Source: Thelephora terrestris (lineage: Eukaryota; Basidiomycota; Agaricomycetes; Thelephorales; Thelephoraceae). Taken from it: 64,000 nt of DNA. The position numbers and the translations under genes are program-made. Under the pieces are notes generated by a model. The model made no database searches and was not told where the DNA came from. It saw only the letters and a program-made list of their open reading frames with translations. This document shows, piece after piece, positions 33,259 through 59,860 of the stretch (positions are counted from its first letter, which is position 1; each line of letters begins with the position of its first letter). The stretch covers positions 558,001 to 622,000 of the forward strand of contig WIUZ02000022.1 of NCBI GenBank assembly GCA_015956445.1, given 5' to 3'.

Positions 33259-33680
33259 GGATTCCGCGATTGCCGCCGAGGACGAGGCGTCCTTCGTTTC
33301 GTTTTCTCCGAATCGGAGGTACGGGTGATGTTAGTACCTGTGGCTTGTGTGCGGCTTAATGTGCTTCCGGGAGCTTTTACTTCCCCGTTGTAACTATGAG
33401 CCGCTTGGCTTTAGCGACACGTTTGTCAGATTTGGTTTGGGTGTGTTGTTGTTTCGTTGTAGTGCTTACTACATTTTTTGTCCGTGTGGTGTTCACTCTC
33501 GTCTCGTGATCACTTTTTGTGCCCCATGCCTGGCAATGATGCCTCAACACAACGTTTTTGCGCTTGACATTTGATCGTGTTATGGGATTCAGCCAGGATT
33601 ATGAATGGGGTTCAAGATGGCCAGCGCGCGGCTTGAGGAAGCTTTCTTGTATTAAATCAAAGCCAGGTTCGAACTCATCC
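33259..33680. other. Convergent 3' region with a duplicated spacer
   Basis: This holds the 3' end of MON1 and the 3' end of the first helicase gene, which converge. The part at 33578-33660 is also present near 51060-51135 (see repeat entry). There is no gene in the remainder. Confidence 0.5.
33578..33660. repeat. Duplicated spacer, copy 1 (3' flank of helicase copy A)
   Basis: This stretch contains GGGGTTCAAGATGGCCAGCG and GGCTTGAGGAAGCTTTCTTG. By eye it aligns at about 80 percent with 51060-51135, the 3' flank of helicase copy C. It is a relic of the duplication that made the array. Confidence 0.75.
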
Positions 33681-36600
33681 TTAGTACGTGCCATACAAAA
33701 GGCCTTCTTTGCTTAACATTGGCCTCCGGACCTTTCGGACCTTAACCGGTTCCTTAACGATACCATCCCACCCCAGCTTCCAGTCACTCTCGATCCCCTC
33801 CTTCGTCTTCGTCGCCGCATTCCCTGGAAACTCCGAGAGCCGGTCAATCAGTTTCCCCACCTCCAATACTGCAGCTTTTAATGCTACTGTACTGCGATCG
33901 TCGTGGAATGGAGACAAGTGTCCTAGCTTCGTTTGAAGTTCTTCAACAGCTCTCTGTAGGTCACTGAGCCATAAAGCGGTTAGGCGGCGCTTCACCGAGG
34001 CGAGAGCATGTGTTTACCTGGACCGATCAAACCTCTCGATGAATTCTTCAAGCCTCTCGTGGCCACTTCCTTGCAGCTGCTTCCTCGAATCCTCCTTGAT
34101 ATGATCTGCGAATGTCTTCATACCATCTAGGCACAGAAGAACGTGTACAAGAGGTCCTTGGATCAGCAATTTGTACCTCGTGCCCCTTGGCCATTCCATG
34201 CCTGACACCCTCTCGTGGAGAAAGGGCCATAGGCATCTTGTGGCATCCAGGGCCTCTTTTTTCCGTTGTCTGAAGCGGTGATACGCCGCCTCGATTGTGA
34301 AGACAGCTTGAATCTCCTCGGGAGACGCAGGGGCTCTGTCTTGGCCGCCATTATCAATGTTAACCTCGCTTTCATTTGGGTTGAGTACGTCTTCCTCAGG
34401 CAGGGTGAGTTGCTTTTGCTGGATATCGTCGTTCTCAGGTTCGATCGGGCGTCCCTCGGAGCGACCTACCACCTTTGCGCGGAGGCGGTCCGGGATCTCT
34501 TCGAGGTTGTCATGCATGACGGTTCGGACGTATCGGGATACCCATCCCCGGTGTTTTGGCCCTTTAGAGTGTAACAGGAGGACCATTTCGTCGAGCGTCG
34601 ATTCGGACAGCGACTTCGTGAACACCTTTAACAATCCCCACCAGTCTGTCGCTTCGGCGTACCTAAGTACATCGAGGTTAAAGCGAGCATTTGACGAAAG
34701 GGCGTATTAACCACATACTGTCGGTAGATTCCGTTCGCTCGCTCCTGCCTCCGTAGCCCGTGGATAGCTTGTACTACTTTCGACCTAAGTGCAGTGTCGT
34801 TGATGTTGTATGCCACTAGCGAATAGATTAGGCGTGGGATGTCCATAATACTGGTAATCACTCACAAAGACAAAGGCAGAAACAACTACAGGCAATGGTT
34901 AATCTCGATTTTGAGGGATGGATGAGGATAAGCCTACATTCTAGCGATGTACACCGATGCGTACATGGGACTCAGCCTCGACCCGTTGTGTGTGAACTGG
35001 CAGTCATCAACATCTTGAGGGTCATATTGCTCGCGTTGCAAATCTATGCGCTGAAGAAGCTTGATTGTGTCGTGTACTAAGTTCGGGAAGTGGCTTATGT
35101 TCTGGTCCAGAGCGGGGTGTGAACGGAGTAGGCCTATGAACCAGCTACGGGGTAAGGTGACACCGTGCAAGGTGCCACGCCCCGTCGCAAACCGGTGAGC
35201 AAGGATGTGCAAGCCGCATGACCTTTCCACTGCGTCGCAGAAAGGGCCAAGGTCCACAGGGATACGATTCACAAGGATTTGCCTGTATGTACATAAGTCG
35301 AGGGATAAAAACTCCTCGAGTACGACGCTCACCTCAAATACAAGACTCCTAATACCAGTGAGTGGCGGAGATCACCGCGCAAAAGTTGAACATAGTCCCT
35401 GACAATGAAGTGTGTCTCCGTGCCTGACCCCGGTCGAGTGAGGCACTGAGGCCACCCATCGTATGTGCACATCTGTGTACGAGGAAGATATTCTTGTGCC
35501 CATTCATAGTCGAAGTCGTATGACATCGTGCAAACAAGCATAAAGTTGGAGATAAAGGTTTCTGGAGCTTCGGGATTGAACGAGAGTCCGCCACACGCCT
35601 GCCGGACCCACTCCCGCAGAGTCCGAATCCCATCCACCGATTCGGGTGTGTCCCCGAGATCGAGGATTGCGATGGACCCCAGCTTTGGTGACGGTGGGTG
35701 CAGAATGGAGTAGAGGACGTCAATCCAGTGGCTATTCGTGTATGATTAGACTCTGGGATAGGCACGGTCAGAAGCAAAGCGCACATAACGACACCCTTTG
35801 GGCGGAAACCAGCCAAATTCAAAATTCGGATTTCCATCAGCACGGACTGGATGCGAGCGTTGAACCAGCTGACTGTCATCTCCTCAGGCCGGATGTGCTG
35901 GAACTGACAGTCCTCTCTTGAGCATTCACCCCTTGTCGCCATTGTCATGCAGGGATAGCTTCCGAGCTTCCTGCGGTAAGCGGTGTGTTGCTGTTTTGCA
36001 CGAAGGTAGATATACTCCGGGATCTCGTGATTAAGTACGCGTCTGAGCTTCTCATGGGTAAAAATGAGGCCTCTCCCCACGCGCAAGAAACTTTCTGCTG
36101 GGATGAAGAATTGATCGTTTCCGCGTGACTGGAATGCGAAGACCTTTTGGCGCATGGATCCAGGATCCAGGCGATCTTCCCGCCTCAGACGATCCAGAAG
36201 CTCGAAATAGGCAAGATGAAGGAGAAGTCCGGGTCCAGGATCGACTGGCGTAACGCCCTGTGGAGGAAGATTGGGGGTGAAGGTTGGATCGAGGCACAAC
36301 AAAGCGGCAGGATAATTTTCTGCCTGGATGAATCGAGGGTGGAGAGAATGAAGTGTTTCAAGATCGCTGTTGTGCCTCGCTCTGAACATCTCGATCTGTG
36401 GTTCTCTCAGTACCGTTCTACTACCACAAGAGAACAACGAACCCCACCTCGTTAGCCTCTTGCTCGTGTATGTCAGTTTCTAAAGTGTTTGCCAACTCCA
36501 GTAATTCGGAAACCGCGTCTGGGTCCATTGTAAGATAGCGCGTCCCGAACGATTGATATCGCCAGAGTCCAGCTACCAGATACTCCACTGCGCGTCGCGT

Positions 36601-39600
36601 GCGGTCTCGTGCTCTCGGTAAGGTAAGTAAGGTCTTGACCGCTTTCGCTACCCTTCCGCTGTTTGCAAGGACCTCTGCAGCTTTGAGGATCATTCCCGAT
36701 GTGTGGAGCAATTCGGCATGTTCCTTGTGGAACCCGTAGTCTTTCGTGAATGTTATGGCTTCCTCCTTCGAGGAGAATAACTTCTGTGCTTTCCTACTCG
36801 TTGTTAGGTCTCGACTTCTGCCCATTTTTCTCCAAAAACTCACTCGACCTTGCCGCTCTAAGGGATCTTTGTTTCAGTGATATGTTCTCTGATAGCGGAT
36901 AAGTTTCCCACCTTGAAGTAGTTCACTTGAGCAATTTTCGTCAGCTGAGCACGGAGACTGGCTTCAATCTGATGCCCGTGTCTCTTGAGCACATCTACCA
37001 TCTCGTCGAAGTGACCGCCCTTCCGATAGGCGCGAGCCGCTTCGGAGTACTGCTCTACATGCCCGAAACAATCACCTGCGTCCTTCCATCTGTTGCTCTG
37101 AGAAAAACAACCCGCCGCGTTGGTATAGTATGCCAACTGTTCTCTCCTCTTGTCTGCAGGAGATGTGTCCGCACAAGTATGGAATGCTTCACCGGCTTTA
37201 CCAAAAGCAGCTGACCTTTCCTTGACTTTGTCATCGGGTACTGCCTTGGCGTTCTCTCGGAGGAGGTATGCATGACAAATTGCGGCCTCTCGGCTGCTTT
37301 CAGCTTGTCCAAATGCCACCTTAGCTTGTGCATAACGCTTGTTGGTGAACATCCTAAGCCTCCTGCGTCAGAACATAACGCTACAGCTTTGGAGCGCACA
37401 ACAGACAATTTCCCTGTGTTGTACCATTCTTGTGAAACGGACTTCGCGTCCAAGGGAAAAGCGTTGGTCATAGACTCCAAAACTCCAGGAGCAGACTCCC
37501 GAACTTCGATGTCATTTCTCCAATAAGTCTGGGTTCGATTGTCAGCACCTGTTGGAAGGATTGATGACGCGGGTACCTTCATCGGCTCTGCGCTTTCAGA
37601 GTCATCCAAAAACAGGAGGTTCTTCCGGGCGCGTGTGATCGCGACGTATAGGAACTTCAACTAATCCTGTAGCTTAGCAGCTGTGGGGCGGGGACGGAGT
37701 CACAGTAATACCTCCGTGCAGATGCTCGCATGCCTGGTTTCGTCGAAATCTGGCACAGGTGTTCCGTTGGAATTGCCCTTCATGACCAATCGCCATCGGG
37801 CAGCATCCACAGTGGAATCCTTGAAGAAGTTGTACAACACGACCTGCACGGAGTCAGATTTACATAACTCCCCATGCTCCGCAAAGCCTACATCGTTGGT
37901 TTCTAGGCCTTTGCTCTCATATAATGTCCTGGAGTAACACGTTACACCGCTTCAAGTTTGTTTTGAGCCGGGACTCACATGATTATGGTCTTGTCTCCCA
38001 ACGTCTCCTGGAGCCGGTTCTTGGCAGCACAGTCACGAACGAGTATCCCTGGTTCATTCCCATGAGTGAGTTTTTAAAAGATCAAGATTTCTGCGTTTAC
38101 ATTGATCCGGTCGGAACTGGACCGGCTTTCCTTCGCTGTCATAGAAGAAAGATTTCTCAGAACAGCAAAGGAAGATTGGTTTGGCGCCATCAACTGATGC
38201 CCTCTCCGGCTGCAATGTATCAATAGAATGTGGCCAATAGTCTTGGATCAGGTCTACCACAGAACGAGCACAGTTTATAATCCCTCCGTGAGACCTATAA
38301 TTGACAAGTAGTTCATAGGTCATGGGGTCTACTGGCTCCGTTCCATAGTGGGATTCGCTCTGATGGAGTGTGAGAAACGATCGGAGGAAGCTTTCTGGGA
38401 CGCTGATACCTCTATTCGGTACTGGAAAGCTTTCAGATCACTGAATTTGAATGAACTCCCGACAGATATGGTCTCCGAGCAGATTAGGGATTGCGCTGTG
38501 TATAAATGAAACATGCACACCTGTGCGGTGTCACCAGCCCAGAAGAGACCGTGGGGGTTTCTGCATATTGTTCGGAGAACTGCAGTAGAGAAACAGGTCA
38601 ATTGGGTTTTGGATGAGTTTTTGGGAAACGTACCAAGCGTGTCTATCAGGAGGTTATCTTGTACTTCATCAACATACCTGTGCCATGAGTTACTTAAGTC
38701 TTCCGAAGTAGGCGCAACATTTACACCAGTACTGACAAGAAGTCGACTTTTTTACCCTTCTCCTCCTCCTTCCACCTAGTGTCACGAAATTCTTTAAGTA
38801 TGTGATGGGTCCTGCGGACTCGATCAGCGGATTCAGTTGTACGGAGAATACTCCAATAAAACTGACCGATCTGCCGCGTCGTACTCCTGACGTTGTCGCT
38901 TAAGCTTAGTGTACTCAACAAAGAGGTCATACACAGCATCCTTCGTGTGGGAAAGCATCCCTCGGCGACTGCCAGATATGTAGGCATCCCGATCTAAACA
39001 CCGTTGCCATGTGCCGATAGCTTGCTCAGAGCCTTTGATCACTCCCAAAATCTCTCCAAAAACCAGAGCAGGATCTACCCCCAAAATTATACGTGCTTCG
39101 CGAGGGGCTTGTTGGGTACGTACCTAAGGCTCGCGTGAGATGTTGCGGAAAGTGGTTCCAGTACCGTGGGAGAAAAGTGTCTTCGTAGGATATTAACCGG
39201 TCGCCATTCCGTTCAGAATAATCAACTGTGGGAACGCTTGTTGAAACCCCCCTTTGTCGCGTCCTCTGAGATGACAATGAAATTGTGGAAGAGCCGCCAC
39301 GCCCTGGCGTGGTTGAAGTTGCAGGAATGATAAACCCATCGTTATCATTTTCTTCCCTGATGTCATTCTGAAGCATGAAACAAAGCTATATCCAAGCTTA
39401 TCAGGAATAGGGAATTGAAGGAACTGATCGTCATGGACACACCCGCTCGTACGTTATGAACAGCGGGAAATGATCATTATCCAGCTCGCTGAACTTCATA
39501 GGTAAATCCGGTCGCCAATGAGCTTCATCGTCCAGGTCTATGAACTCCATCTCCTTTTCGGCGTCCTTGCACATCTCGCGGAGTTCCTGGGGGGAGTAGG

Positions 39601-41837
39601 AAGCAGTTTCAACTGAAAACTTGAGCTTCAAGAAGTCTTGATCAACTTTTGCGGCAAGATTCCTGGATTGCGTGACGAAAATTTGGCGGGGTCTGTCCCA
39701 CATGTCTGGGAATTGCTTGCAAGTGCGCTCTATGCCAAGCATCTTATAGAGGATTGTAGTTGTCTTCCCCGTACCGCTTCGGCCAATGACGTAGCACGAT
39801 GACGTGCTTTCAATGACTTCCTGCTCCTGCGAACTACCCCGCGCATTAGACATGAGCATTGCAATGAAATCAGGTGCGTACGAGACAGCAAACACATGCG
39901 CAAAATCTTGATCGGCGATAATACCTTTTAAGCATCGGTGAGCGTTAAACCTTGTGAATGCTGACGCGGTCGCCTACTGCTAAGAAGAGCCTGACAATGG
40001 ATCATTTTTTAACGGGGAAATCCTTCAATAGTGAGTTACGCTACCTGGGATAGGATGACATATTTATCCAGGCTGGTTGGAGATGAAACAATGCACTGCG
40101 AGACGCTATACAGGGACATACACAAGCATGGAGTGGATCTATACATTCGAAGTGTTAGTGCACACCGAGAGAAATTCGGGAATAGATTGATCATACATTC
40201 CCCAGATCATCTTTCCAAGGATTGACTAGAGGCACATTCTCCTGGATCTCTTGGACCGGTAACTGGGGAAAACTTGCAGGAAGGATCGCGTTGTCTCCGG
40301 TATTTAGAGGCTTGGCCCTGAATGTGCATCTTGCAATATAATCTGAGCCCTTGTGTTCGAGCTGTTGGCTAAGAGTATCCCAGAAAAAGCTGTGTTCCAT
40401 TTTGGCATGTGTGTAGATGCCAAAGACATTGATTGCTTGATTTTACGGGTAGTTGGTTGTAGGGTCTTAGGAAAATCGTGTGAAAAATACCTTGAGTTTC
40501 GCCCTGGCTATGCTTGTGAGAACCGGGTTGGCAATAATGGCAAAGAACCCACCTCGCCATCAGGAATGCAGTCAATGCGGTACTACGAAGGGGTCACTTC
40601 TGTCGGTATAGAGCCCATGATGCTGACTCACAACAAGCCTTGTATCGCCGGTCAATTTAGCTTCGTATACCTGGATGGTTGTCTTAGGACCAGTGAGCTG
40701 TTTTTGGTTGTCACCGGAGAAGTGGCCTCGAGATAGTTCTCTGTTACCAAGTTAGGACGTGCGGAGGTCAAACAGGGGATTCCCCTTACTTCATTTTCTT
40801 CATGGTGATCTTGAACATGAGTTTGTTTCCACGTCTGGCTTCTCGCAAGTACTTCTGTGCCCTTGTTGATAACAAAATCCGCCACTTTCCGAATCCCTCC
40901 ACGTTATCGAAGTAGAGAGAGGCCTTAATCGGTTCGATCGTGGACTCTGCTGTTGTGATTCCTGAGTCTTCGAGTTGGCGCTTGAAGTGATCCGATAGCC
41001 TAGGTCGCTTTAGGAAGTGGAGGTGGTCCTAGGATCGGGTAAGTGTTCCAAGGTGTGCCTGATTGAGAGGGGTACACGCACTCCAAAGACAGCCTCCAAT
41101 CGAAGTAGGATGTCGCCGCACGCTGCGCGGACTTCGTGTTCAGTCGTCGGTACTGGAATTCCCATACAATCGAAGGGATATGGGTTGAGTCCTAGGTTCC
41201 TCGTTGGCGCTTTAGGCTTTCTACGGCTGGCCTGGGACATGTTTACATTGGCCGAAGCTCGATCTGTGTATCCATTGAGTTCCTTCAATGCATCCAGAGA
41301 CAAGACTGTCTTCTTTTGTAGCTCCCTGAGCTCGTTCCGTTGCTCTGTCGGGACCACCCTTTCTGCAGGGATTAGGGAAGAGGAAAGTCGTTGGAGGAGC
41401 GTGATGCCCAACGTCTCCATCACATTGGGCGTGTCGGGCGCGGGGAACCGGGCGATAATCCACGTTGATAATATCTCGAAGGATTGGTCATCTAAGGCTA
41501 GAGGAGCGTTCCTTATCAGACATACAGCAATCAATAGCGTCAGAAACTTACCAGACATGATGTACTCAAAAACGTGAGGACGACAACTGAGCTCTGAAAC
41601 CATATGCATGATTGAGGGATCGTCGTGGTAGCAGACCCTTTGAACCGAGCGCAGGGCGGTTTCAAGCCCGCCTCGGGTGGTCAACGCATCTGGCTTGAGA
41701 ATATCCGTGTTCAAACTTTGTGCGGAGGAAGCGCGTTTTGGCGGCATGATATCGGTGAGGCGAAGATTGGCTGCCGCGCTTTCTCGGCTCCGAGGCGCGG
41801 TGGGTTGGGCGCCTTGAGGAATCGTAGGCTCTGTCAC
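33681..41837 (-). CDS. TRANK1-like multidomain UvrD-type helicase, copy A
   Basis: This is a very large protein (roughly 2,000 residues by my estimate, more than 15 exons). In order: an N-terminal lineage-specific block (41837-41082, ALTTRGGLETALRSVQRVC, RPHVFEYIMS); a region at about 41030-40380 resembling the RelE/ParE fold (FGKWRILLSTRAQKYLRE, VYEAKLTGDTRLVYRIDC, AINVFGIYTHA); and an SF1 helicase core. The core shows Walker A GRSGTGKT (39784-39761), motif II VDEVQD (38673-38656), GDTAQ, motif IV NYRSHGGI (about 38302) and motif VI YVAITRAR (37648-37625). Next come a helical TPR-like stretch (37350-36430), a CCCH zinc finger with spacing C-x8-C-x4-C-x3-H (35951-35895), and a charged C-terminal domain (34634-33681). 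All helicase motifs are intact. The TRANK1-like assignment rests on layout; substrate and role are unknown. Start 41837 (MTEPTIPQGAQ) aligns with copy B. Confidence 0.82.
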
Positions 41838-42089
41838 GGTACCGGTGTGATTTTGATATAACTTATGGACAAAGCGCGCGTTGTACCAACTCCCGCAAAG
41901 TAGCAGCAGCTGTCGTTAATCACATTATATCCGAAAACCGCTCTAGCCACATTGAAAGCTTCTTGATTCCGCAGAAGAGCAAAGCGAGAAGGGTAGGCGG
42001 AAGCGCAAGAGGTGTCGGAAGATGCCGATGCGACATGGTCAAGGTGCACTCTACAATCGTACAGACTTCAATTTCGAACTGATGACTCC
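41838..42089 (-). promoter_or_regulatory. Promoter of helicase copy A
   Basis: This 252-base spacer lies between the stop of copy B and the start of copy A. It has a TATA-like GATATAAT on the minus strand (41931-41924) and the 16-bp element GTGTCGGAAGATGCCG (42012-42027, plus-strand reading), both conserved in the other copies at almost the same spacing. Confidence 0.6.
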
Positions 42090-45000
42090 CTACAGGTACA
42101 AAAGATCTTCTTTGTCCAGGGTTAACGTTGGTCTCTGAACCTTTCTGCCCCTAACCGTTTTCCTAACAATACCATCCCATCCTAGCTTCCAATCGCCCTC
42201 AATACCCGCCTTCGTTTTTGTCGCCGCTTGCCCTGGAAACTCCGAGAGCCGATCAATCAGCTTCCCCACCTCCCTCACCTCAGCTTCTAATGCCGGTATA
42301 CTGCGATCGTCGTGAAACGGAGATGAGTGCCCTAGCCTCGTTCGGAGTTTTACAACGGTTCTCTGTAGGTCACTGAGAATGAAGTGGTTGAGCGGTGTTC
42401 CACTGAGGTGACAGCATGTCTTTACCTGGCTTTATCAGACTTCTCAATGAATTCTTCAAGTCTATCGTGGTCACTTCTCTGCAGTTGCTTCCCCAAATCC
42501 TCTTTGATATGGTCCGCGAGTATCTTGATACTATCTAAGCACACAAGAACGTGTACAAGAGGGCCTTGCATCAGTAGCTTGTACCCCTTGCGCTCTGACC
42601 ATTCCATGGACGACGCCCTCTTGTGGAAAAGGGACCATAGGCGCGATGTTGTGGAATAAAGGGCCGCCTGCTTTCGTTTGCTGAAGCGGTGATAGGCCGC
42701 CCCGATCACAAGAACAGCTTGAATCTCCTCGGGAGACGCGGAGGCTTCTTCTTGGCCGCCATTGTCGATGTTAACTTCGGTGTCATTCAACGGGTTGAGT
42801 ACGTCCTCCTCAGGTAAATCAAGCTGCTGTTGCTGGACATCGTCGTTCTCAGGTTCGACCGAGCGTCCCTCAGAGTTGCTGGCGGGCTTTGTTCGAAGGC
42901 GGTCCGGGATCTCTGCAAGATTGTCATGCATGACGACTCGTACATATCGTGATACCCATCCTTGGTATTCTGGCGCCTTAGAGTACAATAGGAGGACCAT
43001 TTCATCGAGCGTCGAGTTGGACAACGACTTCGTGAACACCTTTACCAATCCCCACCAGTCGGGCGCTTCGGTGTACCTAAGTGCATCGGGGTCCAGCGAC
43101 CACTTCACAAAAAGGTCAATAAATCACATACAGTCGGTAGGCTCCATTCAGTGGCTTCTGCCGTCTTAAGCCGTGGATAGCTTGTAATACCTTCGACCTA
43201 AGTGCCACATCGTTGATGTTGTATCCCACTAGTGAATGCATCAGGCGTGGGCGATGTTCATGGTGCTGAAAGCTACTCACGGAGACAAAGGCAGCAACAA
43301 CTGCAGACCATGGTTAATCTCAGATTTGAGGGATGATTAAGGGCAGGCTTACATTCGAGCGATATACACCGATGCATACAGTGGAGTCAGCCTCAACCCG
43401 TTGTTTTTGAACTGGCAGTTATCAACTTCGGCTAAAGGATCATAGTGCTCGCGCTGCAAGTCTGTGCGTCGAAGAAGCTCAATTGTGTCATGTACGAAAT
43501 GCGGGATGTGGCTCGTGTCCTTGTTCAAAGTCGGGCGTGAACGGAGTAGGCTCACGAACCAGCTACGAGGTAAGGTAACACCGTGCAAGGTGTCGCCCCC
43601 CGTCGCAAACCGATGAGCAAGGATGTATAGGCCACATAATCTTTCCACTGCGTCACAGAAAGGTCCAAGGTCCACGGGGATGTGATTAACAAGGATTCGC
43701 CTGTATCCACATAAGACGAGAGATAACGGACTTCGTGAGTAAGATGCTCACCTCAGATAAAGGGTTCCTAATATCAGTGAGTGATCGAGACCACCCCGCA
43801 AAAGCTGAGCGAAGTCCCTGACAATTAAGTGTTTCTCCTCGCCCGACCCCGGTCGGGTGAGGCACTGAGGCCACATCCTGCGTCTGTACATCCGTGTACG
43901 AGGGACATACCCTTGTGCCCCCTGGTAGTCGAAGTCATATGCCATCGTGCAAACAGGCATAAAGTTGGGGATGAAGGTTTCGATGTACCGGAATGGTGAA
44001 GCTAGGGTACTGAACAAGAGTCTGTCACACGCCTGCCAGATCCATTCCCGTAGAACCCGAAGCCCGTCAACAGATTCAGGTGTGACCCCGAGATCGAGTA
44101 CTGCAATGGACCCCAGCCTTGGTGACGGGGGGTGCAGGATGGAGTAGAGGACGCCAATCCAGTGACTATTCATGGATGGTCAAATTCTGGTGTGGGCACA
44201 TTCGGTGGTAATACGCACATAATGACACCCTTGGGATGGAAGCCAGTCAGATTCAAAATCCGAATTTCCATCAGTACGGACCGGATGCGAGAATTGAACC
44301 AATAGACTGTTATCTTTTCGTGCCGGAACTGACAGTCCTGTCTTGAGCATTCACCTCTTGTCGCCATTGTCATGCAGGGAACACCCCCGAGCTTCCAACG
44401 ATAAGCGTCGTGTTGCCGTTTTGCGCGGAGGTGGATGTACTCTGGAATCTCGCGGTCAAGTACACGACTGAGCCTTTCATGGGTAACGGTGCAGTCTCCC
44501 TGTCTTTGCGGGGCAATGACCGCATGCAAGAAACTTCTTGCTGGGATCAAGAATCGGTCATCTTCGGGCGACCGAAACGCGAAGATCTTTTGGCGCATAG
44601 AACCAGGATTCAAGCGATCTTCTCGCCTCAGACGATCTAAAAGCTGGAAGTAGGCGAAATGGAGAAGAAGTTCGGGTCCATAATCCACTGCGGTGACGCC
44701 CTGCAGAGGAAGAGTGGAGGCGAAGATCGGATCGAGGCACAACAAAGCGGCAGGGTAATTTCCTGCTTGGATGAACAGTGGATGGAGGATACGAAGTGTT
44801 TCAAGATCTTCGTTGTGCCTTGCCCTGAACATCGCGGTCTGTGATTCTCTTAGTACCGCACTACAAGGAAACAATGAAACCTACCTCGTTGGCCTCTTGC
44901 TCACGCATGTCGTTCTTCAATATGTCCGCCAACGTCAGTAATTCGGAAACTACGTCTGGGTCCGTTGTAAGGTGGTCCATCCCGAATGATTGGTATCGCC

Positions 45001-48000: not shown

Positions 48001-50237
48001 TGAGTAGGAAGCAGCTTCAACCGACAACCTAAGCTTTAAGAAGTATTCCTCGACTTTAGTCGCAAGAACTCTGGATTGTGTGACGAAGATCTGGCGGGGT
48101 TTAGCCCACATGTCCGGAAATTCCCTCCAGGTGCGCTCAATGCCAAGCATCTTGAAGAGGATCGTCGTTGTCTTCCCTGTACCGCTTCGGCCGATGACGT
48201 AGCACGATGAAGTGCTTTCAATGATCTCTTTCTCCTGCGAGCTACCTCTGCGTGTTAGACACGAGCGTCGCAATGAAGCTAGGCACTTACGAGACGGCAA
48301 ACATATGCGCAATGTCTCGATCGGCGAGAATGCCTTTTAAGCATTAGTGAGTGTTGAACCTTGCGAGGGTTGACATGGTCGCCTACTGTTAAGAAGAGCC
48401 TGTCGAGAGATAATGTTTTAACGAGGACGTTCTTTCGTACTGAGTTACGCTACCTGGGACAGAATGACAAATTTATCGAGGCTGGCAGGAAATGAGTAGA
48501 TATACCGCGGAACGTGACACACGGACATACACAAGCATGGAGTGGATCTATATATTCGACGTGTCAGTGCGCACTGACAGGAATTCGACGACAGATCCAT
48601 CCACGCACACTTTTCAAGTCTTCTTCGCAAACATTGATCATGGGTACGCACTCCTGGATCCCTTGGGCCGGTAACTGGGGAAAACTTGTGGGAAGGATTA
48701 CGTTGTCAACAGTATTGAGAGGCTTGGCCCTGAATGTGCATCTTGCAATGTAATCTGAACCCTTGCGTTCGAGTTGTCGGCTAAGGGTATCCCAGAAACC
48801 GCTGTGTTCCATCTTGGCATGTGTGTAGATGCCAAAGACACTGATTGCTTGATTTCACGGGTAGTAGGTTGCAGGATCATGGGAGATTGTATAAAGATTA
48901 CCTTGGGTTTCACCCTAATTGTGTTCGTGAGAATTGAGTCGGCAATATTAGTAAAGAACCCACCTCTCCATGAGCGATACAGTCGATGCGATACTATGTG
49001 GACACATCACTTCTGTCGCTAGAGGGGCCATGATACTGACTCACAACAAGCCTTGTGTCACCGGTCATTTTAGCTTCGTATACTGGGATTATTATCTTGG
49101 GACCAGTGAGTTGTTTTTGGTTGTCCCCGGAGAAGTGGCCTTGAGATAGTTCCCTGTTACCAAGTTAGAACGTGCGGAAGAGAAACCGAGGGAAGTCTGC
49201 TCACTTCAGCTTCTTCACAGTGATCTCAAACATGACACCGTTTCCACGTTTGACGTCTCTCAGGTACTTTTGCGCCCTTGTTGACAACAAGATCCGCCAC
49301 TTTCCGAAGCCCTCCACGTTATCGAAGTACAGCGAGGCCTTAATCGGTTCGGCTGTGGACCCTGCTGTTGTGGTTCCTGACTCTTCAAGTTGGCGCCTAA
49401 AGAGATCCGATACCCTAGGTCGCCTTAGGAAGAGGAGGTAGTCCTAGAATCGGGTAAGCGTTTTGAGGTGTGGCCGACGGACAAGGAAGAACGCACTCCA
49501 AAGGTGCCCTTCAATCGAAGTAGGAGGTCGCCACACGCTACATGAACTTCGTGTTCGGTCGTCGGTACCGGGACCCCCACACAATCGAAAGGATATGGAT
49601 TGAGCTGCAAGTTCCTCGCTGGTGCTTTCGACTTTCTACGGCTGGTCGGAGACATATTCACATTGCTCGAAGCTCGATCTGCGCATCCATCGAGTTCCTT
49701 CAATGCAGCTAGAGACAAGTCCGTTTTCTTTCGTAACTCCCTGAGTTCGTTGCGTTGCTCCATCGTCACAGACCTTTCGGCAGAGTTTAAAGAGGAGGAT
49801 AGTCGTTGGAGGAGTTTGACGCCCAACGCCTCCATCACATTGGACGTTTCGGGCGCGGGGAACCGGGCGATAGTCCACTTTGATAATCTCTCGAAGGGTT
49901 GGTTATCTAAGGCTAGAGGGGCGTCGGTCGTCAGACGTGTAGCAGTTACAAGCGTAAGAAACGCACTCGACATGATGTACTCGAAAACGTGAGGACGACA
50001 ACTAAGCTCTGAAATCATATGCATGATTGAGAAATCGTCGTGATAGCAGACTCTCTGGACCGAGCGCAAGGCGGTTTCGAGCCCGCCTTGGGTAGTCAAC
50101 GCATCTGGCTCGAGGATGTTTGTGTTAAAACTCTGTGCGGAGGAAGCGCGTCTTGGTGGCATGATATCGTTGAAAGAAAGATTGGCCGCCACACTTTCTC
50201 GACTCGGAGCATGGTTTGGTGAATCGGGCGCCCGCAT
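42090..50237 (-). CDS. TRANK1-like multidomain UvrD-type helicase, copy B
   Basis: This is a paralogue of copy A with the same layout. The start at 50237 (MRAPDSPNHAPSRESVAANL) is a clear ATG. The N-terminal block runs to about 49480, and the RelE/ParE-like region lies at about 49410-48790. Helicase motifs are Walker A GRSGTGKT (48192-48169), VDEVQD (47087-47070), NYRSHGGI (about 46720) and YVAITRAR (46063-46040). The helical repeat stretch lies at about 45960-44860, where KRYAQAKVAYKRAG and AARAYRKGGRFDEMVEVLKR resemble TPR-like helices. The CCCH finger is at 44376-44320, and the charged C-terminus at 43108-42090. The stop codon is TAG at 42092-42090. All key residues are present, so the gene looks functional. 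It is probably nuclear or cytoplasmic; no signal peptide or membrane segment is seen. Confidence 0.82.
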
Positions 50238-50470
50238 CTGTCACGGCGTGATTTCATATACGGACAAAGCGCGCATTGTTCCAACTTTTGCAACGTGGGA
50301 GAAGCTGCCGCTAATCATATTATATCTGCCAACAGTCCATAGTCGCGTTCGCAGCTTCCGGAGATGCATAAAGCAAGATGAGAGGCTCTCAGGGGCAGAA
50401 GCAAGAGGTGTCGGAAGATGCCGGTGCGACAGGGTCGAGTTGCGAGCGGCGAGGGCGCCCAAGACTAGGT
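50238..50470 (-). promoter_or_regulatory. Promoter of helicase copy B
   Basis: It carries the same TATA-like GATATAAT (minus strand, 50326-50319) and the same 16-bp GTGTCGGAAGATGCCG (50408-50423) as the other copies. The spacing between them is 89 bases, against 88 in copy A. Confidence 0.6.
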
Positions 50471-50739
50471 GGTTTTTCGAAGGGGTTATGCCTCTGTATC
50501 GTTTGTCCTTAGCCGCCGATCCTCGTCTGGATTCGCGGGTTATCGTGGAGATGTATCGGTTGTGTGATCGTCCGGACCGCTCCTAAGCATCACCTTGCCC
50601 CCTTCTCTTAAACGTTCGAAACACCGACGCCGAGTATGTCTCCGTCCGTAAGTGACCATGGCCCCCGAGACCAGGAGCGCGTGTCTATCTCTTGTGGGGG
50701 AATCAAGTCCTCCGTCCTCGATAAATGGTCCAATCCGAC
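50470..50739. other. Unassigned spacer
   Basis: These 270 bases lie between the copy B promoter and the duplicated exon relic. No gene, repeat or motif was recognised. Confidence 0.35.
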
Positions 50740-51075
50740 CTAGTGGGAAAGGGAGGTTGCGACAACGGTTCTGCGAAGTGCGACTAACTCATTCCAACCA
50801 CCATGGAACATGAGATAGATTTTTCTAATGGATCACTAGAATTCCAATAAACCACAAAGCAAAAAGTGGGATTGATCACACACCAGCGCTTCAATCAACC
50901 TCCCAGAATTGTGGTCGTCCCATGGCTCCTCCCTTCCTGTCCTCCTCCAAACGAGTTCTGGCTTGGACAATGTGTGCATTCATAAAGAACGTCGTCTGTG
51001 TAGCTCAACATCGCTTGTTCGTAGGCCTCGACGACGTTTTTGTACTTGGCGTTGTCCGTATCATAGGATTCCGCC
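50740..51075 (-). pseudogene. Relic of an unidentified 3' exon, copy 1
   Basis: On the minus strand, 51075-50985 reads as protein-like sequence (AKYKNVVEAYEQAMLSYTDD). It matches 60580-60430, which reads AYERARLSYTDDVFYEDVHS. Past that point the two copies can be aligned as DNA but no longer share a reading frame. Flanking non-coding DNA (GTGGGAAAGGGAGGTTGCGA at 50741 against GTGGGAAGGAGACGTTGCGA at 60303) is also shared. I do not recognise the parent gene. Confidence 0.55.
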
Positions 51076-51135
51076 AGGATCGTGAGTGGGGTTCAAGATG
51101 GTCAGCGCGTGGCTTGAGGAAGCTTTGTTGTAATG
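51060..51135. repeat. Duplicated spacer, copy 2 (3' flank of helicase copy C)
   Basis: This is the counterpart of 33578-33660, with GGGGTTCAAGATGGTCAGCG and GGCTTGAGGAAGCTTTGTTG. It joins directly onto the exon relic, so relic and spacer together mark an old junction. Confidence 0.72.
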
Positions 51136-51370
51136 TGAAGCCGACCGCCCATAATCATTCCCGCCCGTGAAGCCTGAAGCTTGAGGTCTGGTCAAAGTGG
51201 CTGCGAGATCAGAGGTGTCGGTGCAGTATGAAAAAGGTTCCCGAGACACGCGCGACTTGGGGCCCTCTGGAGTGAGCGAAGCGAGATTAGGTGCCCCCCG
51301 ATACCCGGAGTCTTTCTGAGCCTCCTCGCTCTGAGCTCGAGGCTTGACTCCCACAAATAATCATACACCG
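51136..51370. other. Extra ~235-bp segment absent from the copy A flank
   Basis: In copy A the duplicated spacer runs almost directly into the 3' end of the gene. Here about 235 bases of different sequence intervene, including GGAGTGAGCGAAGCGAGATT. The flanking TTCGAACTCATC resumes at 51371. No terminal repeats, tRNA-like boxes or open transposase frame were found; it may be an insertion or a deletion in copy A. Confidence 0.4.
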
Positions 51371-51384
51371 ACTTCGAACTCATC

Positions 51385-54300
51385 TTACGGATACAAAAGA
51401 TCTTCCTCGTCCAGGGTTAGTGTTGGCCTCTGAACCTTTCTGCCCCTAACCGTTTCCCGAACAATACCATCCCATCCTAGCTTCCAATCGCCCTCAATAG
51501 CCTCCTTCGTTTTTGTCGCCGCTTGCCCCGGAAACTCCGAGAGCCGGTCAATCAGTTTCCCCACCTCCAATACTGCAGCTTTCAATGCCAGTGTGCTGCG
51601 ATCGTCGTGGAACGGAGACAAGTGTCCTAGCTTCGTTCGAAGCACCACAACTGCTCTCTGTAGGTCGCTGATTACGAAGCGGTCAAGCGGAGTTCCACTG
51701 AGGCGAGGGGGTGTGTTTACCTGGATCGATCAGACCTTTCGATCAGTTCTTCAAGCCTCTTGTGGTCACTTCCTTGTAGCTGCTTCTTCGAATCCTTCTT
51801 GATGTAGTCAGCGAAAGACTTGATGCCATCTAGGCACACAAGGACATGTGCAAGAGGTCCTTGCATCAGCAATTTGTACTTCTTTCCCCTTGACCATTCC
51901 ATGGTTGACGCCCTGCCGTGAAGAAGGGACCAGAGGCGTGCTCTTGTGGCATTTATACCCTTGAGGACTTCTTTCTTCCGTAAACTAAAGCGGTGATACG
52001 CAGCCCCGATCACACGAACAGCTTTGATCTCCTCGGGAGTCGCGGTGGCTTCCTCTTGGCCGCCATTGTCGATGTTAGCTTCTCCATCATTCGGGTTGAG
52101 TACGTCTTCCTCAGGCAAAGCGAGCTGCTTTTGCTGGCCATCGTCGTTCTCAGGTTCGATTGGGCGTGCCTCGGTGCGGCCAGTAGTTTTTGCGCGGAAG
52201 CAGTCCGGGATCTCTTCGGGATTATCGTACATGACGATTCGGACGTAGCGTGATACCCATCCCTGGTATTTTGGCGCCTTAGAGTGCAACAGAAGGATCA
52301 TTTCATCGAGCGTCGAGTCGGACAACGACTTCGTGAACACCTTAACCAATCCCCACCAGTCGGGCGCATCGGTGTACCTAAGCGCGTCGAGGTCCAGCGA
52401 TCACTTGACGAGAAGATATATATGAGTCACATACTGTCGATATACCGCATTCAGCCTCCGTAACCCGTGGATGGCTTGTAGTACCTTCAACCTAAGTGCC
52501 TGATCGTGAATGTTGTATCCCACTAGAGACTGCATTAGGCGTGGGCAATATCCACTGTACTGGAAGGCACTCACGGAGACAAAGGCAGAAACAGCTGCAG
52601 GTAATGGTCAATCTCGACTCCGAGGAATGAGTAAGGGTAACTTACATTCGGGCGATGTACACCGACGCGTACATGGGACTCAACCTCGACCCGTTGTGCT
52701 TGAACTGGCCGTTATCGGCAACTTGAGGGTTATAGTGCTCGTGCTGCAGATCGATGCGTCGAAGAAGTTGGATTGTGTCATTTACGAAATGCGTCATATA
52801 GCTTGTGTTCTTATTAAGAACGGGGCGCGAGCGGAGGAGGCTCATGAACCAGCTGCGGGGTAAGGTAATACCATGCAAGGCACCACGCTCCTTCGCAAAC
52901 CGGTGGGCGAGGATATGCAAGCCACATAACCTTTCTACTGTATCACAGAAAGGGCCAAGGTCCACAGGGATGCGATTCGTCAGGATTTGCCTGCATGTAT
53001 ATAAATCAAGGAATCGAGACTCCGCGAGTATATCGCTCACCTCAGGTACAAGACTCCTAATATCAGTGAGTGGTGTGGGCTGCCCTGCAAGAGCTGAGCG
53101 AAGTCCCTGACAATGAAATGTCTCTCCGCGCCCAACCCCGGTCGAGTGAGGCACTGAGGCCACTTCCTGAATCTGTGCATCCGTGTGCGAGGGACATACT
53201 CTTGCGCTCGCTCATAGTCCAATTCGTATGCCATCGCGCAGATAGGCATAAAGTCGGGGATGAAGGTTTCGATGTACTGATATGGCGAAGCTGAGGCGCT
53301 AAACATGAGTTTGTCACAGGCCTGCCAGATCCATTCCCGCAGAATCCGAATCCCGTCCATCGATTCAGATGTGTTCCCGAGATCGAGTATCGCGATGGAC
53401 CCCAGTCTTGGTGATGGGGGGTGCAGAATGGAGTAGAGCACGCCAATCCAGTGGCTATTTTTATATGGTCAAATTCTAGTGTGGCACATTCATTGGACAC
53501 GCACATAATGACACCCTTGGAGTGGAAACCAGTCAAATTCAAAATCCGGATTTCCATCAGCACGGACCGGATGCGAGAATTGAACCAGTGAACTGTCATC
53601 TTTTCGTGCTGGAACTGGCAGTCCTGTCTTGAACAATCACCCCTTGTCACCATTGTCATACAGGGGTAGCTTCCGAGCCTCCTACGGTAAGCGTTGTGTT
53701 GCTCTCTCGCACGAAGGTGGATGTAGTCTGGGATCTCGCGATCAAGTACGCGCCTGAGCTCCTCGTGGGTGACAATGCAGCCCCCCTGTTCTTGCACGGT
53801 CTCTGGCCTGGGTGCAAAGACCGTGTGCAAGAAACTTTTTGCTGGGAGAAAAAACCGATCATCTTCTCGCGCCTGAAATGCGAAGACCTTTTGGCGCATG
53901 GAACCAGGATCCAAACCATTTTCCCGCCTCAGCCGATCCAAGAGCTCGAAGTAGGCGAAATGGAGAAGAAGCTCGGGTTCATGATCGACTGTGGTAACGC
54001 CCTGGAGAGGAAGAGTGGAGGTGAAGCTCAGATCGAGGCACAACAAAGCGGCAGGGTAATTTTCTGCCTGAATGAATCGGGGGTGGAGAAAATGAAGCGT
54101 TTTGAAATCGCCTTTGTCCCTAGCTCTGAACATCGCAATCTATTGTTCTCAGGGTTAGCACCATACCACAAGGGAACAACGAATCTCACCTCGTCGGCCT
54201 CTTTCTCGTGCATGTCTCTCCTCAAAGTCCTTGCTAACTCCAGTAGTTCAGAAACCACTTCGGGATCCGTTGTAGGATAGTCCACCCCAAAAGATTGATA

Positions 54301-57300
54301 TCGCCAGAGTCCGGTCCTCACATACTCCACGGCGCGTCGTGTGCGATCTTGTGCCCTTGGCAGGGTAAGTAAGGCATTGACCGCATCCGCTATCCTTCCG
54401 CTGTTTACAAGGACCTCTGCAGATTCGAAGATCATTCCCGACGTGCGGAGCAGCTCGACATGGGCATTGTCGAAGCCGTAATCTTCTGCAAACGTTATGG
54501 CTTCCTCCTTCGAGGAGAACAACTTCTGGGCCTTCCTACTCTTGGTGTTAGGTCGCAAAGTTATCAATCTTGCTCCGAAAACTTACTTGACCTTGTCATT
54601 CTAAGGGCCCTTTCTTTCAGTGACTTGATCCCTGATAGTAGATAGACTACCCACCTTGAAGTAGTTCATTTGAGCAACCTTCGTCAGCTGAGCGAGGAGA
54701 CCGGGTTCGATCTGCTTCCCGTGTTTCTCGAGCAACTCTACCATCTCATCGAAGTGACCACCCTTCCGATAGGCACGGGCCGCCTTGGAGTACTGTTCTA
54801 TATGGTTGAAACAATCACCTGCGTCCTTCCATTTGTTGCCCTGGACAAAACATTCTGCTGCGTTGGTGAAGTATGCCAACCGTTCTCTCTTCTGGTCTGG
54901 AAGAGATGCGTTTGCACAAGTGTAGAACGCTTCACCGGCATTACCGAAAGCATCTGCCCTTTCCTTGACCTGGTCATCCGGGACCGCCCTGGCGTTCTCC
55001 CGGAGGAGAAACGCGTGACAGATTGCAACCTCTCTGCTTCTTCCAGCTCGCTGGAATGCCACCAGAGCTTGTGCATAGCGCTTGTTGGTAAACATCCTAG
55101 AGTTCCTGCGTTAGCGCACGACGGAGTGCATGGGGGTACTCGACAAACAATTTTCCTGTGTCAATCCAATCTTGAGATGTGGACTCCGTGGCCAAGCGAG
55201 GAACTTCAGAGGTAGACTCCCAAACTTCGATTTGATCTTTCTTGTCCCAATAGGCCTAGATACGACGGTCAGAACCTCTGGAAACAGGTTCGTAAGGCAA
55301 GTACCTTCATCGGCTTTGCACTGTCGGAGTTGTCCAAAAACCAAAGGTTCTTACGGGCGCGTGTGATTGCAACATATAGGAATTTCAACTAGTCTTGTAG
55401 CTTAGCGGCCATAGGGAAGGGATCAAGTAAAGGCAATACCTCCGTGCATATACTTGCGTGCCTGGTTTCGTCGAAATCTGGTGCGGGTGTTCCATCGGGG
55501 CTGTCCCTCATGACCAATCGCCACTGGCTAGCATTCGCAGTGGAGTCCTTGAAGAAGTTATATAACAAGACCTGCGTAGAGTTAGCAACACACGGTCTCC
55601 CACGCTCAGCAAGGCCTACATCGTTGAATTCCAGACCTTTGCTCTCATACAGCGTCCTGAAAAAGAAAGTGTTATACCGCTTCGAGCCCGTTTTGAGGCG
55701 GGGCTCACATGATTATGCTCTTGTCTCCCAACCTCTCCTTAAGCAGTTTCCTGGCATCGTTGTCGCGAACGAGAATACCTGGGTTTAGATCCATGAGTAG
55801 ATTTGCGCAAGATAAAATATCCGTGTATTTACACTGATCCGCTCCGAACTCGACCGGGTCTCCTTCGCCGTCACCAAAGAATGATCTCTCAAAGTCACAC
55901 TATTGGCAGAAATGTTAGTTAGTGAACGCGGCCAGAGGGGCACCAGAAACGAGTTACGTTTCCTTGGCTGGAAAAGAAAATTGGTCGGAAACCGTCGACA
56001 GATGCCCTCTCCGGTTTCAATCTGTCGATAGAATGCGGCCAATAAAGCGTAATCAGCTCTACCACAGAACGAGCACAGTTTACGATCCCTCCGTGGGACC
56101 TATAATTTTCAACTAGTTCATAGGTCACGGGATCTACTGGCTGTGTCCCATGATGAAAATCTTTCTGAAAGGGTGTGAGGAACAAAGAGGTGGTATTTTT
56201 GGCGACGTCGGTACCTCTAATCGGTACTGGAAAGATTTCAGATCACTGAATTTGAAGGAACTCCCGATAGATATGGTCTACAGATAAGTTAGAGAAAGTG
56301 TTATCCGTGAATAAACAACGCTCGCCTGTGCAGTGTCACCAGCCCAGAAGAGCCCATGCGGATTTCTGCATATGGTTCGGAGTACTGCGGGGAGAAACAA
56401 GTTAACTATGCTGTAGAGGAGTGTGCGGGAAACGTGCCAAGGGTGTCGACAAGAAGGTTATCTTGTACTTCGTCAATGTACCTGTGCCGTCGTCAGCCTG
56501 ATCTAGCGAAGTTGACGCAAGATTTACGGCAATACTGACAAGAAATCGGCTTTTTTCCCCTTCTCCTTTTCCTTCCACCCAACATCACGCAACTCTTTCA
56601 GTATATGATGCGTCCTGTAAACCCATTGAACGGGTTATGGTCAAGAGAACGCTCAAGTTAAGCTGACCGATCCGCCGCGTCATACTCCTGACGTTCTCGC
56701 CTGAGCTTAGTGTACTCGACGAAAAGGTCGTACACGGCATCCTTCGTGTGAGAAGACATCCCTCGTCGACTGCCAGATGAGTAGGCGGCCCGATCTAAAC
56801 ACCGTTGCGGTGTGCCGATGGCCTGCTCGGAACCTTTGATCACTCCCAAAATCTCGCCGAAGACCAAAGCCGGATCTAGCCCTAAAGTTATATGTGCTTG
56901 TAGATAGACCTGTTGTGCACGCACCTAAGACTCGCGTAATTTGTTGCGGAAAGTGGTTCCAGTACCGTGAGAGGAACGTTAGGTAGGATATAAACCGATC
57001 TCCGTCGTGCTCTGGTGTGGGGACGCTCGTCGAAAACCCCCTGCGTCGTGTCCTCCGTGCCAACAGGGGGCTTGTGGGAGAAGTGCTAGGCCCTGGCGTG
57101 ATTGGAGTTGCGGGAATCATAAACCCATCATTATCATTTTCTACCCCAATGTCGTTTTGAACCATGGCACAAAGCTACGTCCAAGCTTATTAGAGGTGAA
57201 GGACCGAAGAAGTTGATGCCATGCACACACCCGCTCGTAAGTGATGAACAATGGAAAATGATCGTCCGTCAGTTCGCTGAATCTCATAGGCAGGTCCGAC

Positions 57301-59547
57301 CGCCATTGAGCCATATCATCCAGGTCTATGAATTCCATCTCATTTTCAGTGTTTTTACTCATCTTCTCCAGCACCTCGGGTGAATATGAAGCAGCTTCGA
57401 CCGACAGCATAAGTTTTGAGAAGTATTCATCGACTTTGGTGGCAAGAACTCTGGATTGGGTAACAAAGATCTGGCGGGGTTTGCCCCACATGTGTGGGAA
57501 TTCCTTGCAGGTGCGCTCAATGCCAAGCATCTTGAAGAGCATCGTAGTCGTCTTCCCCGTGCCGCTTCGACCAATGACGTAGCATGATGATGTGTTTCCA
57601 ATGATTTCTTGCTCCTGCGCACTATCTTCACGTATTAAGCGTAACCGTCATACTGAAGCTTGGCACGTACGAGACGGCAAACACATGTGCAACGTCCTGA
57701 TCCGCGAGAATACCTTGAATAAGTACCTGTGAGCGTCGAATCTTGCGAAGGCTGACATGATCGCCTACTGTTAAGAAGAGCCTGCCAATGATTAATAAGG
57801 GCGTCCCTTCATACTGAGTTAGATTACCTGGGACAGAAGAACAAACTTATCCAGGCTGGCTCGAGATGAGTCAATAGACCGTGGAATGTTATACAAGGAC
57901 ATACACGAGCATGGTGTGGATCTGTACGTCTGAAGCGTTAGCGTGCGTCGACATAAATTTTACAATGGGTTCATTCGCGCACATTTTTCAAGTCTTCTTC
58001 GCAAACCTTGACCAAAGGCGCACTCTCCTTGATCTCTTGGGTCGGTAACTGGGGAAAACTGGCAGGAAGGATAACGTTGTCTCCAACATTTACAGGCTTG
58101 TCCCTGAATGCGCATCTTGCGATGTAATCTGGACCCTTGTTCTCGAGCTGTCGGCTAAGTGTATCCCAGAATCGTCCGTGGTCCAATTGAGCATGCGTGT
58201 ATACGCCAAAAACACTGATCGCTTGATTTTATGGGCAGTAGGTTGCAGGATCCTGGGGAAATCGTACAGAAAACAATCACCTTGGGTTTCACCCTGATTG
58301 TGTTCGTGAGAATTTAGTTGGCAATATTAGTAAAGAACCCACCTCGCCATGAGGGATGCAGTCGATGCGATACTATGTGAACACATTACTTCTGTCGCTA
58401 GGGGGGCCTCGATACTGACTCACAACAAGCCTTGTGTCACCAGTCATTTTAGCTTCGTATACTGGGATTATTGTCTTGGAACCTGTGAGTGGTTTATGAT
58501 TGTCACCGGAGAAGTGGCCTTGAGATAGTTCCCTGTTACCAAGTTAGGACGCGCGGAAGAGAAAGCGACTGGATTTCGCTCACTTCATTTTTTTCACGAT
58601 GATCTCAAACATGACACCGTTCCCACGTCTTGCTTCTCGCAGGTACTTTTGCGCCTTTGTTGATAACAAAATCCGCCACTTTCCAAAGCCCTCCACGTTA
58701 TCGAAGTACAACGAGGCCTTAATCGGTTCGGCGGTTGTGGACTCTGTCGTTGTGGTCCCTGACTCTTCAAGCTGACGTTTGAACACAGCTGACACTCTAG
58801 GCCGCCTTAGGAAATGGAGGTAGTCCTAGAACCGGGTAAGTGTCCCATGATGGACGCAAGGGATAGGTATACACGCACCCTCAATATTCCCTTCAATTGA
58901 AGTAGAATATCATCACACGCTGCGAAGACTTCGGGTTCAGTCGTCGGCACGCGAATTCCCGCACAATCAAAGGGATAAGGGTCGAGTTGTAACTTCCTCA
59001 TTGGTGCTTTTGGCTTTTTACGGTTGGTTGGAGATGAGGTTACACCGACAGGAGCTCGGTCTACGCATCCGTCAAGTTCCTTCAGCGCATCCAAAGAGAG
59101 GGTTGTTTTCCTTCGGAACTCCCCAAGCTCGTTACATTGTTCCGCCGTCACCACCTTTTCGGCGGGCGTTAGGGAAGAGGATAGTCGTTGGAGGAGTTTG
59201 ATGCCCAGCGCCTCCATCACATTGGGCGTGTCGGGCACGGGGAACCGGGCGATAATACACTTCGATAATCTCTCGAAGGGTTGGTTACCTAAGGCTAGAG
59301 GAGCGCTCCTTATCAGATATACAGAAATCAATAGCATCAGAAACTTACTAGACATGATGTACTCAAAAACTTGAGGACGACAACTGAGCTCCGCAATTGC
59401 GTGCATGATTGTGGAATCGTCGTGACAAGAGACACTTTCAATAGAGCGCAGGGCGGTTTGGAGCCCACCTTGAGTGGTTAATGCATCGGGCTCAAGAAGA
59501 GCAGGGTTAAAGCTTTGAGAAGCTGAGGAAGCGCGTCTTGGTGGCAT
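51385..59547 (-). CDS. TRANK1-like multidomain UvrD-type helicase, copy C
   Basis: This is the third paralogue. Similarity to copy B extends upstream to about 59604, but the ATG used by copy B is not present and a stop lies just before the aligned block, so I place the start at the next ATG, 59547-59545 (MPPRRASSASQSF). The N-terminal block runs to about 58890 and the RelE/ParE-like region lies at about 58800-58160 (FGKWRILLSTKAQKYLREA). Helicase motifs are Walker A GRSGTGKT (57572-57549), IDEVQD (56477-56460), NYRSHGGI (about 56107) and YVAITRAR (55376-55353). The helical stretch lies at 55095-54028, the CCCH finger at 53662-53606, and the charged C-terminus at 52349-51385. Core motifs are intact. 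The product would lack about 20 N-terminal residues relative to copy B, outside any recognised domain. Confidence 0.8.
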
Positions 59548-59860
59548 GTTATCGGTGAGAGAAAGGCTGGCCGCCACACTTTCTCGACTTGGACCGTGGT
59601 TTGGTAAATGGGGCGCTCAGATTTTGCAAAAATAGTAAAGGGCTGTCACGGTGTGTGATTTCATATACATGGGTAGAACGCGCATTGTGCCAATTGAGGC
59701 GACGTGGCAGCAGAGAGCAGCAGCCACTACTAATCTTATTATATCTGCAAACCACTCATCGTGGTATTCGAAGCTTCCTGAGTTCGTAGAAGAGTAGAGC
59801 AAGACGAAAAGCTGTGGGCAGAGGTGCAAGAAGTGTCGGAAGATGCCGACGCGGCAGCGC
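59548..59860 (-). promoter_or_regulatory. Promoter of helicase copy C
   Basis: It has a TATA-like GATATAAT on the minus strand (59745-59738) and the 16-bp GTGTCGGAAGATGCCG (59833-59848), 95 bases apart. The region is otherwise clearly homologous to the promoters of copies A and B. Confidence 0.58.

Follow-up and report, generated by a model that had tools for sequence, protein, structure and literature searches.

Why should a fungus keep three giant helicase genes side by side, and what might their products do? This question is raised by a 64,000-nucleotide stretch of the Thelephora terrestris genome (the window; contig WIUZ02000022.1, or C15:558001-622000 in the numbering used here, from a genome of 40.6 Mb in 60 contigs), in which three adjacent genes, designated A, B and C, each encode a UvrD-type superfamily 1 (SF1) helicase of more than 2,100 residues. 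The gene structures, motifs, copy number and purifying selection reported below are direct observations. The explanation that we consider best, at a probability of roughly 0.45, is that the genes specify a large RNA-surveillance or anti-parasite enzyme, expanded in tandem, in which an SF1 motor would be combined with a domain resembling the bacterial toxin RelE; its RNase activity, substrate and role are those that we infer from the accompanying domains.

A predicted RelE/YoeB-type fold ahead of the helicase

Each protein consists, in order, of an N-terminal region, a domain with a predicted RelE/YoeB-type fold, the UvrD-type SF1 helicase, a putative TPR-like solenoid, a CCCH zinc finger and a mostly helical remainder. 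The structure predicted for the RelE/YoeB-like domain of copy B follows the order β-α-α-β-β-β-α and, as a predicted model, matches the RelE/ParE superfamily of the BECR fold. Both this fold and the match of its conserved residues to known active sites are predictions with good support, the likeness to YoeB, RelE and YafQ lying in the predicted fold, the strand order and the places of a conserved Arg and His. The difference lies in the setting, i.e., a eukaryotic helicase of ~2,100 residues, and in the lack of a significant sequence match.

In single-target hhalign comparisons the conserved Arg falls on R61 of RelE and R65 of YoeB, and a conserved Lys on K54 of RelE and R59 of YoeB, while hhalign with YafQ gave no sensible alignment. 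The VIA alignments end with model residue 110 on YoeB residue 83 (2a6r_C) and model residue 111 on YoeB residue 84 (2a6q_E), and these last aligned pairs place the conserved His on YoeB H83. According to one report, R61, R81 and Y87 of RelE and E46, R65, H83 and Y84 of YoeB are essential, with H83 of YoeB seen as general acid and R81 serving as such in RelE (PMC12620021).

The three residues are widely retained. A search with residues 200-1150 of C, which scored those 7,980 candidates that had most words in common with the query, returned 1,843 proteins at E <= 1e-3, and the best 120 of these were listed; their species names we take to be those of Agaricomycetes. In 119 homologues (the 120 listed minus the apparently fused protein P0002), the Lys is kept in 116, the Arg in 115 and the His in 115, although a set picked by similarity to C is biased towards C-like letters. 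These UvrD-like helicase ATP-binding domain proteins are of similar length, and the RelE-like domain and the SF1 core are common to all 119.

Several results weigh against this assignment. Confidence in the five domain models is uneven (mean pLDDT, the predicted local distance difference test, 76.8 down to 37.4), and Foldseek returned no match for the domain at E <= 0.001. The hhalign single-sequence probabilities are low (7 and 10%), the E values of 0.003-0.005 applying to a one-target comparison only. The Pfam model ParE_toxin matched weakly (best E 0.016) in two of 15 members, a profile search of the PDB gave one unrelated match (E 1.6) and no significant match to a bacterial toxin sequence, and among the 339 matches at E <= 1 in a profile search of 5.8 billion proteins, the 17 examined of the best 120 look like fungal pieces. 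The position of the RelE general base, K52, is occupied by Glu, so the chemistry need not match that of RelE. Finally, the full Lys-Arg-His set, which is kept in 111 of 118 homologues (P0001 also being set aside), is missing from the other seven and from four of the seven T. terrestris copies (D-G, see below). A collection of bacterial and archaeal genomes was scanned twice, with patterns taken from the RelE-like domain and with helicase patterns; the 37 and 89 pattern matches, respectively, included no relative, although distant relatives would escape such exact patterns.

The SF1 motifs and the CCCH finger named in the original prediction are present in all three array copies (GRSGTGKTT, V/IDEVQD, GDTAQ, NYRSH and VAITRAR), and Walker A, DExxD/Q, GDxxQ, NYRS and TRA(R/K) stand in this order in all seven genome copies, G reading NHRSH. 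The Pfam model UvrD_C (PF13361) scored above its curated cut-off of 25.6 in C (39.9 bits) and in P0001, the public protein of copy B (36.4 bits); the N-terminal UvrD model fell below its cut-off in these two and above it in the homologues P0012 and P0094. Behind the helicase, TPR-type helical hairpins are predicted, with a block pLDDT of 82-91 in the initial 150 residues; Pfam's TPR models match weakly and under cut-off. The C-terminal half is predicted to be mostly helical (whole-model pLDDT 64.9), and Foldseek matched it to generic solenoids with low TM-scores. Copies A-F preserve the finger, of pattern CX8CX4CX3H, which is altered in G; its residues are invariant in the five homologues aligned there.

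Two known systems invite comparison. Some family members, e.g., P0094 of Hypsizygus marmoreus, are named ‘TPR and ankyrin repeat-containing protein 1’, and the animal protein of that name, TRANK1, is a giant protein with a UvrD-type helicase and TPR. Pfam ankyrin models matched neither P0001, P0012 and P0094 (E up to 0.1) nor C (E up to 1). Cami1 is a CRISPR-associated effector related to RelE, with a CARF domain that puts it under the control of cyclic oligoadenylate; the Pfam matches obtained here include no CARF model.

RelE works at the ribosomal A site, and the E. coli enzyme cleaves on eukaryotic ribosomes too, according to a report that also describes multidomain proteins with a BECR fold and, in eukaryotes, a few fusions of toxin and antitoxin, one of them from Gigaspora, and whose main text does not contain the word helicase (PMC11980606). 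In one survey, Tox-RelE is listed for bacteria only, and at least 13 toxin domains are given as transferred to fungi (PMC3482391); eukaryotic sequences resembling ParE, with Debaryomyces hansenii among their sources, fail the ParE criteria of another study (PMC2446400). Among the papers listed from the literature covered, from which subscription journals were mostly absent, no description was found of this fungal family, of its RelE-like domain or of fungal RelE-helicase fusions.

Array copies, dispersed copies and relatives

All three genes are encoded on the minus strand, head to tail as had been claimed from the sequence alone, and show as direct repeats in register (33.7-59.2 kb, with spacings of ~8.4 and ~9.3 kb, among the 20 of 42 repeat families listed). 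The upper end of the extent then proposed, 33681..59604, lies 57 bp past the ATG of C. Since each gene has more than 30 short introns, lists of open reading frames (ORFs) give fragments only, and the gene models were built by our own splice-aware protein-to-DNA alignment, with three regions fixed by eye from the reading frames. The models (~2,100 codons each) contain no frameshift and no internal stop. Their introns measure 46-61 bp and nearly all positions are homologous among the copies; GC donors are required in one intron of B and two of C. Protein identity is 76.3% (A-B), 74.3% (A-C) and 77.5% (B-C), i.e., a divergence of 22-26% of residues, slightly above the 15-25% first estimated.

Copy B is identical to the public protein P0001 (T. 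terrestris BJ322DRAFT_1114103) bar three gene-model differences. One of these concerns an intron at window position 46517, which in B opens with GC (GCACGT, a weak donor) and at the same site in A and C with GT; the public model differs there, with ~30 helicase residues replaced. The P0001 entry may come from the same assembly and provides no independent proof of the array. None of the other 119 proteins listed is a T. terrestris entry, even with C as the query, so A, C and D-F seem to be without a full-length public model within the range of lengths searched.

The original prediction counted three copies, which holds for the array, but the genome has at least seven (A-G). The same set was returned by two queries, one a mid-protein segment and the other taken from a T. 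ganbajun protein, of which it comprised the helicase core, and these counts are lower bounds; a profile search of the T. terrestris genome with Pfam UvrD_C gave no matches, probably due to the short exons. Copies D and E form an inverted convergent pair on contig C24 (C24:41553-49676, plus strand, and C24:54944-63061, minus strand), are 94.6% identical and have in common a frameshift a few residues ahead of the stop. They differ at 19-37 sites per ~450 in the first two thirds and at 0-1 past residue 1800 (tail dS 0.007), near-identical 3' ends that point to gene conversion between the inverted arms. Copy F, on contig C56, is frameshift-free, and copy G (C2:912900-920024, plus strand), the model of which is without the first part of the gene, is divergent, with 42-43% identity to A-F.

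In the tree, C joins (A,B), then (D,E); F and P0002a, an incomplete sequence from T. ganbajun that covers 38% of columns, fall outside A-E with no firm order between them, and G pairs with T. ganbajun P0003. None of the seven T. terrestris copies pairs on a branch with a further T. ganbajun type, P0002b; copy types differ between the two species. In the public model of P0002 (BDM02DRAFT_3187952; 3,022 aa), the C-terminal portion of a first copy seems to run on into a second, complete one, an apparent fusion from which it seems that neighbouring copies exist in T. ganbajun too. Clustering seems to recur more widely, since, of the 17 other species that appear at least twice in the list of 120, seven have two of their proteins on equally long contigs (a hand count). 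The array is a tandem expansion specific to the Thelephora lineage, and the mushroom-fungus family to which it belongs is large and apparently uncharacterised.

Array and dispersed copies differ in the RelE-like domain. At H290, K312, R318 and H344 (C numbering), copies A, B and C all read HKRH, whereas D reads REKR, E CEKR, F RERQ and G QRRL; for H290 no known catalytic counterpart was matched. The Arg that replaces the last His in D and E may still work, because RelE uses R81 as general acid, but the Gln of F and the Leu of G could not act as general acid in that way. At 37 near-invariant columns of the domain, departures number 4 in A, 3 in B and 2 in C, against 7 in D, 8 in E, 6 in F and 11 in G; at 178 near-invariant helicase columns the numbers are 23, 17 and 12 against 15, 14, 12 and 18. 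The contrast is significant but modest and tied to descent (Fisher p for A-C versus D, F and G 0.0094, versus D-G 0.0055 and versus D and F 0.048, the copies not being independent).

Loss of the Lys-Arg-His set in extra copies was considered as a general rule and rejected, as 12 of the 17 species with at least two listed proteins show no departure. Departures occur in Suillus discolor (two of three proteins), S. bovinus (one of two), Candolleomyces aberdarensis (one of two), C. eurysporus (two of two) and T. ganbajun, where P0003 has Arg for Lys and P0002 keeps the set.

A proposed surveillance nuclease or an ordinary helicase

Taken together, the RelE-like domain and its neighbours, namely a helicase motor, a putative TPR-like scaffold and a finger of RNA type, suggest an RNA-directed surveillance nuclease. 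In such an enzyme, the helical regions and CCCH finger would hold RNA or a ribonucleoprotein, the SF1 motor would spend ATP to travel along this substrate or to remodel it, and the cutting of RNA, perhaps at stalled ribosomes as by bacterial RelE, or at least its binding, would fall to the RelE-like domain. A role in defence or surveillance had been proposed from the helicase genes; with the predicted RelE-type fold, a part in RNA-directed conflict or quality control would become a more concrete proposal than on the helicase motifs alone. If the domain is active, fungi would possess, in a family of 1,843 matches so far annotated only as UvrD-like helicase, a nuclease that acts on RNA or ribosomes and is coupled to a motor, and bacterial toxin folds would be linked to eukaryotic RNA surveillance.

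The chief alternative to RNase activity is a RelE fold that merely binds. In its fuller form, the family would consist of ordinary UvrD helicases of DNA repair or recombination, with a fold that is structural or nucleic-acid-binding and inactive as a nuclease, and with chance tandem duplicates kept by dosage or mild subfunctionalisation. This account is a serious contender, if one held at less than even odds. Sequence libraries see in these proteins a UvrD, AddA, RecB, Rep or PcrA-type helicase, and the domain is under purifying selection in pairs that involve the dispersed copies (ratio of non-synonymous to synonymous rates, dN/dS, 0.19 for C-D, 0.22 for D-E and 0.14 for C-F) even though its active-site-like residues are altered in four of seven copies and incomplete in seven of the 118 homologues. 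It explains less readily why residues matching the RelE/YoeB active site should be near-invariant in the family and retained in A, B and C.

A more specific version of the nuclease reading holds that an RNA-cutting toxin of RelE/YoeB type was built into a giant helicase and expanded as RNA-directed immunity or quality control, with the array copies of T. terrestris catalytically competent and the dispersed copies, which would have lost the catalytic set but not the helicase, acting on them as regulators or decoys. We think this unlikely in its entirety; the array copies with the Lys-Arg-His set and the dispersed copies without it offer a natural contrast for testing it.

A family that varies in copy number and diversifies under selection for the surveillance or recognition of invaders is more doubtful still. 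It would accord with the number of genome copies, the seemingly recurrent clustering, the apparent fusion of neighbours in P0002 and the PADLOC models closest to the helicase, which are those of the UvrD helicase GajB (P0001, best E 6.7e-9; P0012, best E 6.9e-11). These matches, however, span short helicase stretches only: GajB (the Gabija helicase), AddA and UvrD/PcrA share the SF1A motifs but are bacterial, and their similarity does not extend further. Pairwise dN/dS (Nei-Gojobori), moreover, runs counter to decay and shows no hint of diversifying selection. It amounts to 0.27 (A-B), 0.26 (A-C) and 0.21 (B-C), far from 1 and in line with the predicted maintenance of three full-length genes, and to 0.17-0.29 over the 15 pairs of A-F. 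The helicase core is slower than the linker ahead of it (for the three array pairs, RelE-like domain 0.15-0.17, helicase 0.14-0.24, linker 0.35-0.62, TPR-like region 0.25-0.34), but the diversification that had been suggested found no support, since no 60-codon window of the A, B and C pairs reaches 1 (maximum 0.84, at a window dS of just 0.17), and the faster regions look relaxed rather than positively selected.

An assembly artefact or decaying pseudogene array, to which the weak GC donor of B, the differing public model at that site and the want of any full-length entry for A or C in the list of 120 might point, has next to no probability given the open frames of three ~2,100-codon genes, their low dN/dS and their dS of 0.49-0.59, at which mis-assembly of one gene is not credible.

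Likely duplication footprints and neighbouring features

The flanks of the genes preserve traces of how the array grew (Table 1). Between B and C, a copy of the flank upstream of C and a 3' flank repeat stand five bases apart, which places a duplication joint at ~51026-51031 and makes these intergenic copies a likely footprint of tandem duplication. The gap between A and B is 342 bp. A mosaic test among A, B and C found no clean switch, the A-B signal being weaker toward the 3' end.

Table 1. Positions in the window of the array genes, their domains and flank repeats
Feature	Position	Strand	Basis
Gene A, giant UvrD/SF1 helicase, 2,114 aa, 33 introns	33681..41747	-	spliced model
Gene B, giant UvrD/SF1 helicase, 2,116 aa, 33 introns	42090..50162	-	spliced model
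Gene C, giant UvrD/SF1 helicase, 2,126 aa, 34 introns	51385..59547	-	spliced model
RelE/YoeB-like domain of A (predicted; residues 234-369; K310, R316, H342)	40326..40935	-	alignment to modelled domain of B
RelE/YoeB-like domain of B (predicted; residues 234-369; K310, R316, H342)	48738..49350	-	structure predicted on P0001
RelE/YoeB-like domain of C (predicted; residues 236-371; K312, R318, H344)	58112..58729	-	alignment to modelled domain of B
SF1 helicase core of A, Walker A to motif VI	37616..39784	-	
SF1 helicase core of B	46031..48192	-	
SF1 helicase core of C	55344..57572	-	
CCCH zinc finger of A	35895..35951	-	
CCCH zinc finger of B	44320..44376	-	
CCCH zinc finger of C	53606..53662	-	
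Copy (67% identical) of flank upstream of C (60287-60581), between B and C	50727..51026		blastn
3' flank repeat of C (82.5%, 103 bp, versus 3' flank of A)	51031..51132		blastn
3' flank repeat downstream of A, counterpart of 51031-51132	33549..33651		blastn
5' flank repeat, also at B (50259-50443) and partly at C (59731-59856); 72-73% identity	41864..42047		blastn

None of five ORFs flanking the array had a Pfam match at E <= 0.01. Elsewhere in the window, an ORF with a DUF6535 domain lies at 15094-16470 (minus strand; E 5e-26) and one with an ABC transporter domain at 24382-25146 (minus strand; E 3e-18).

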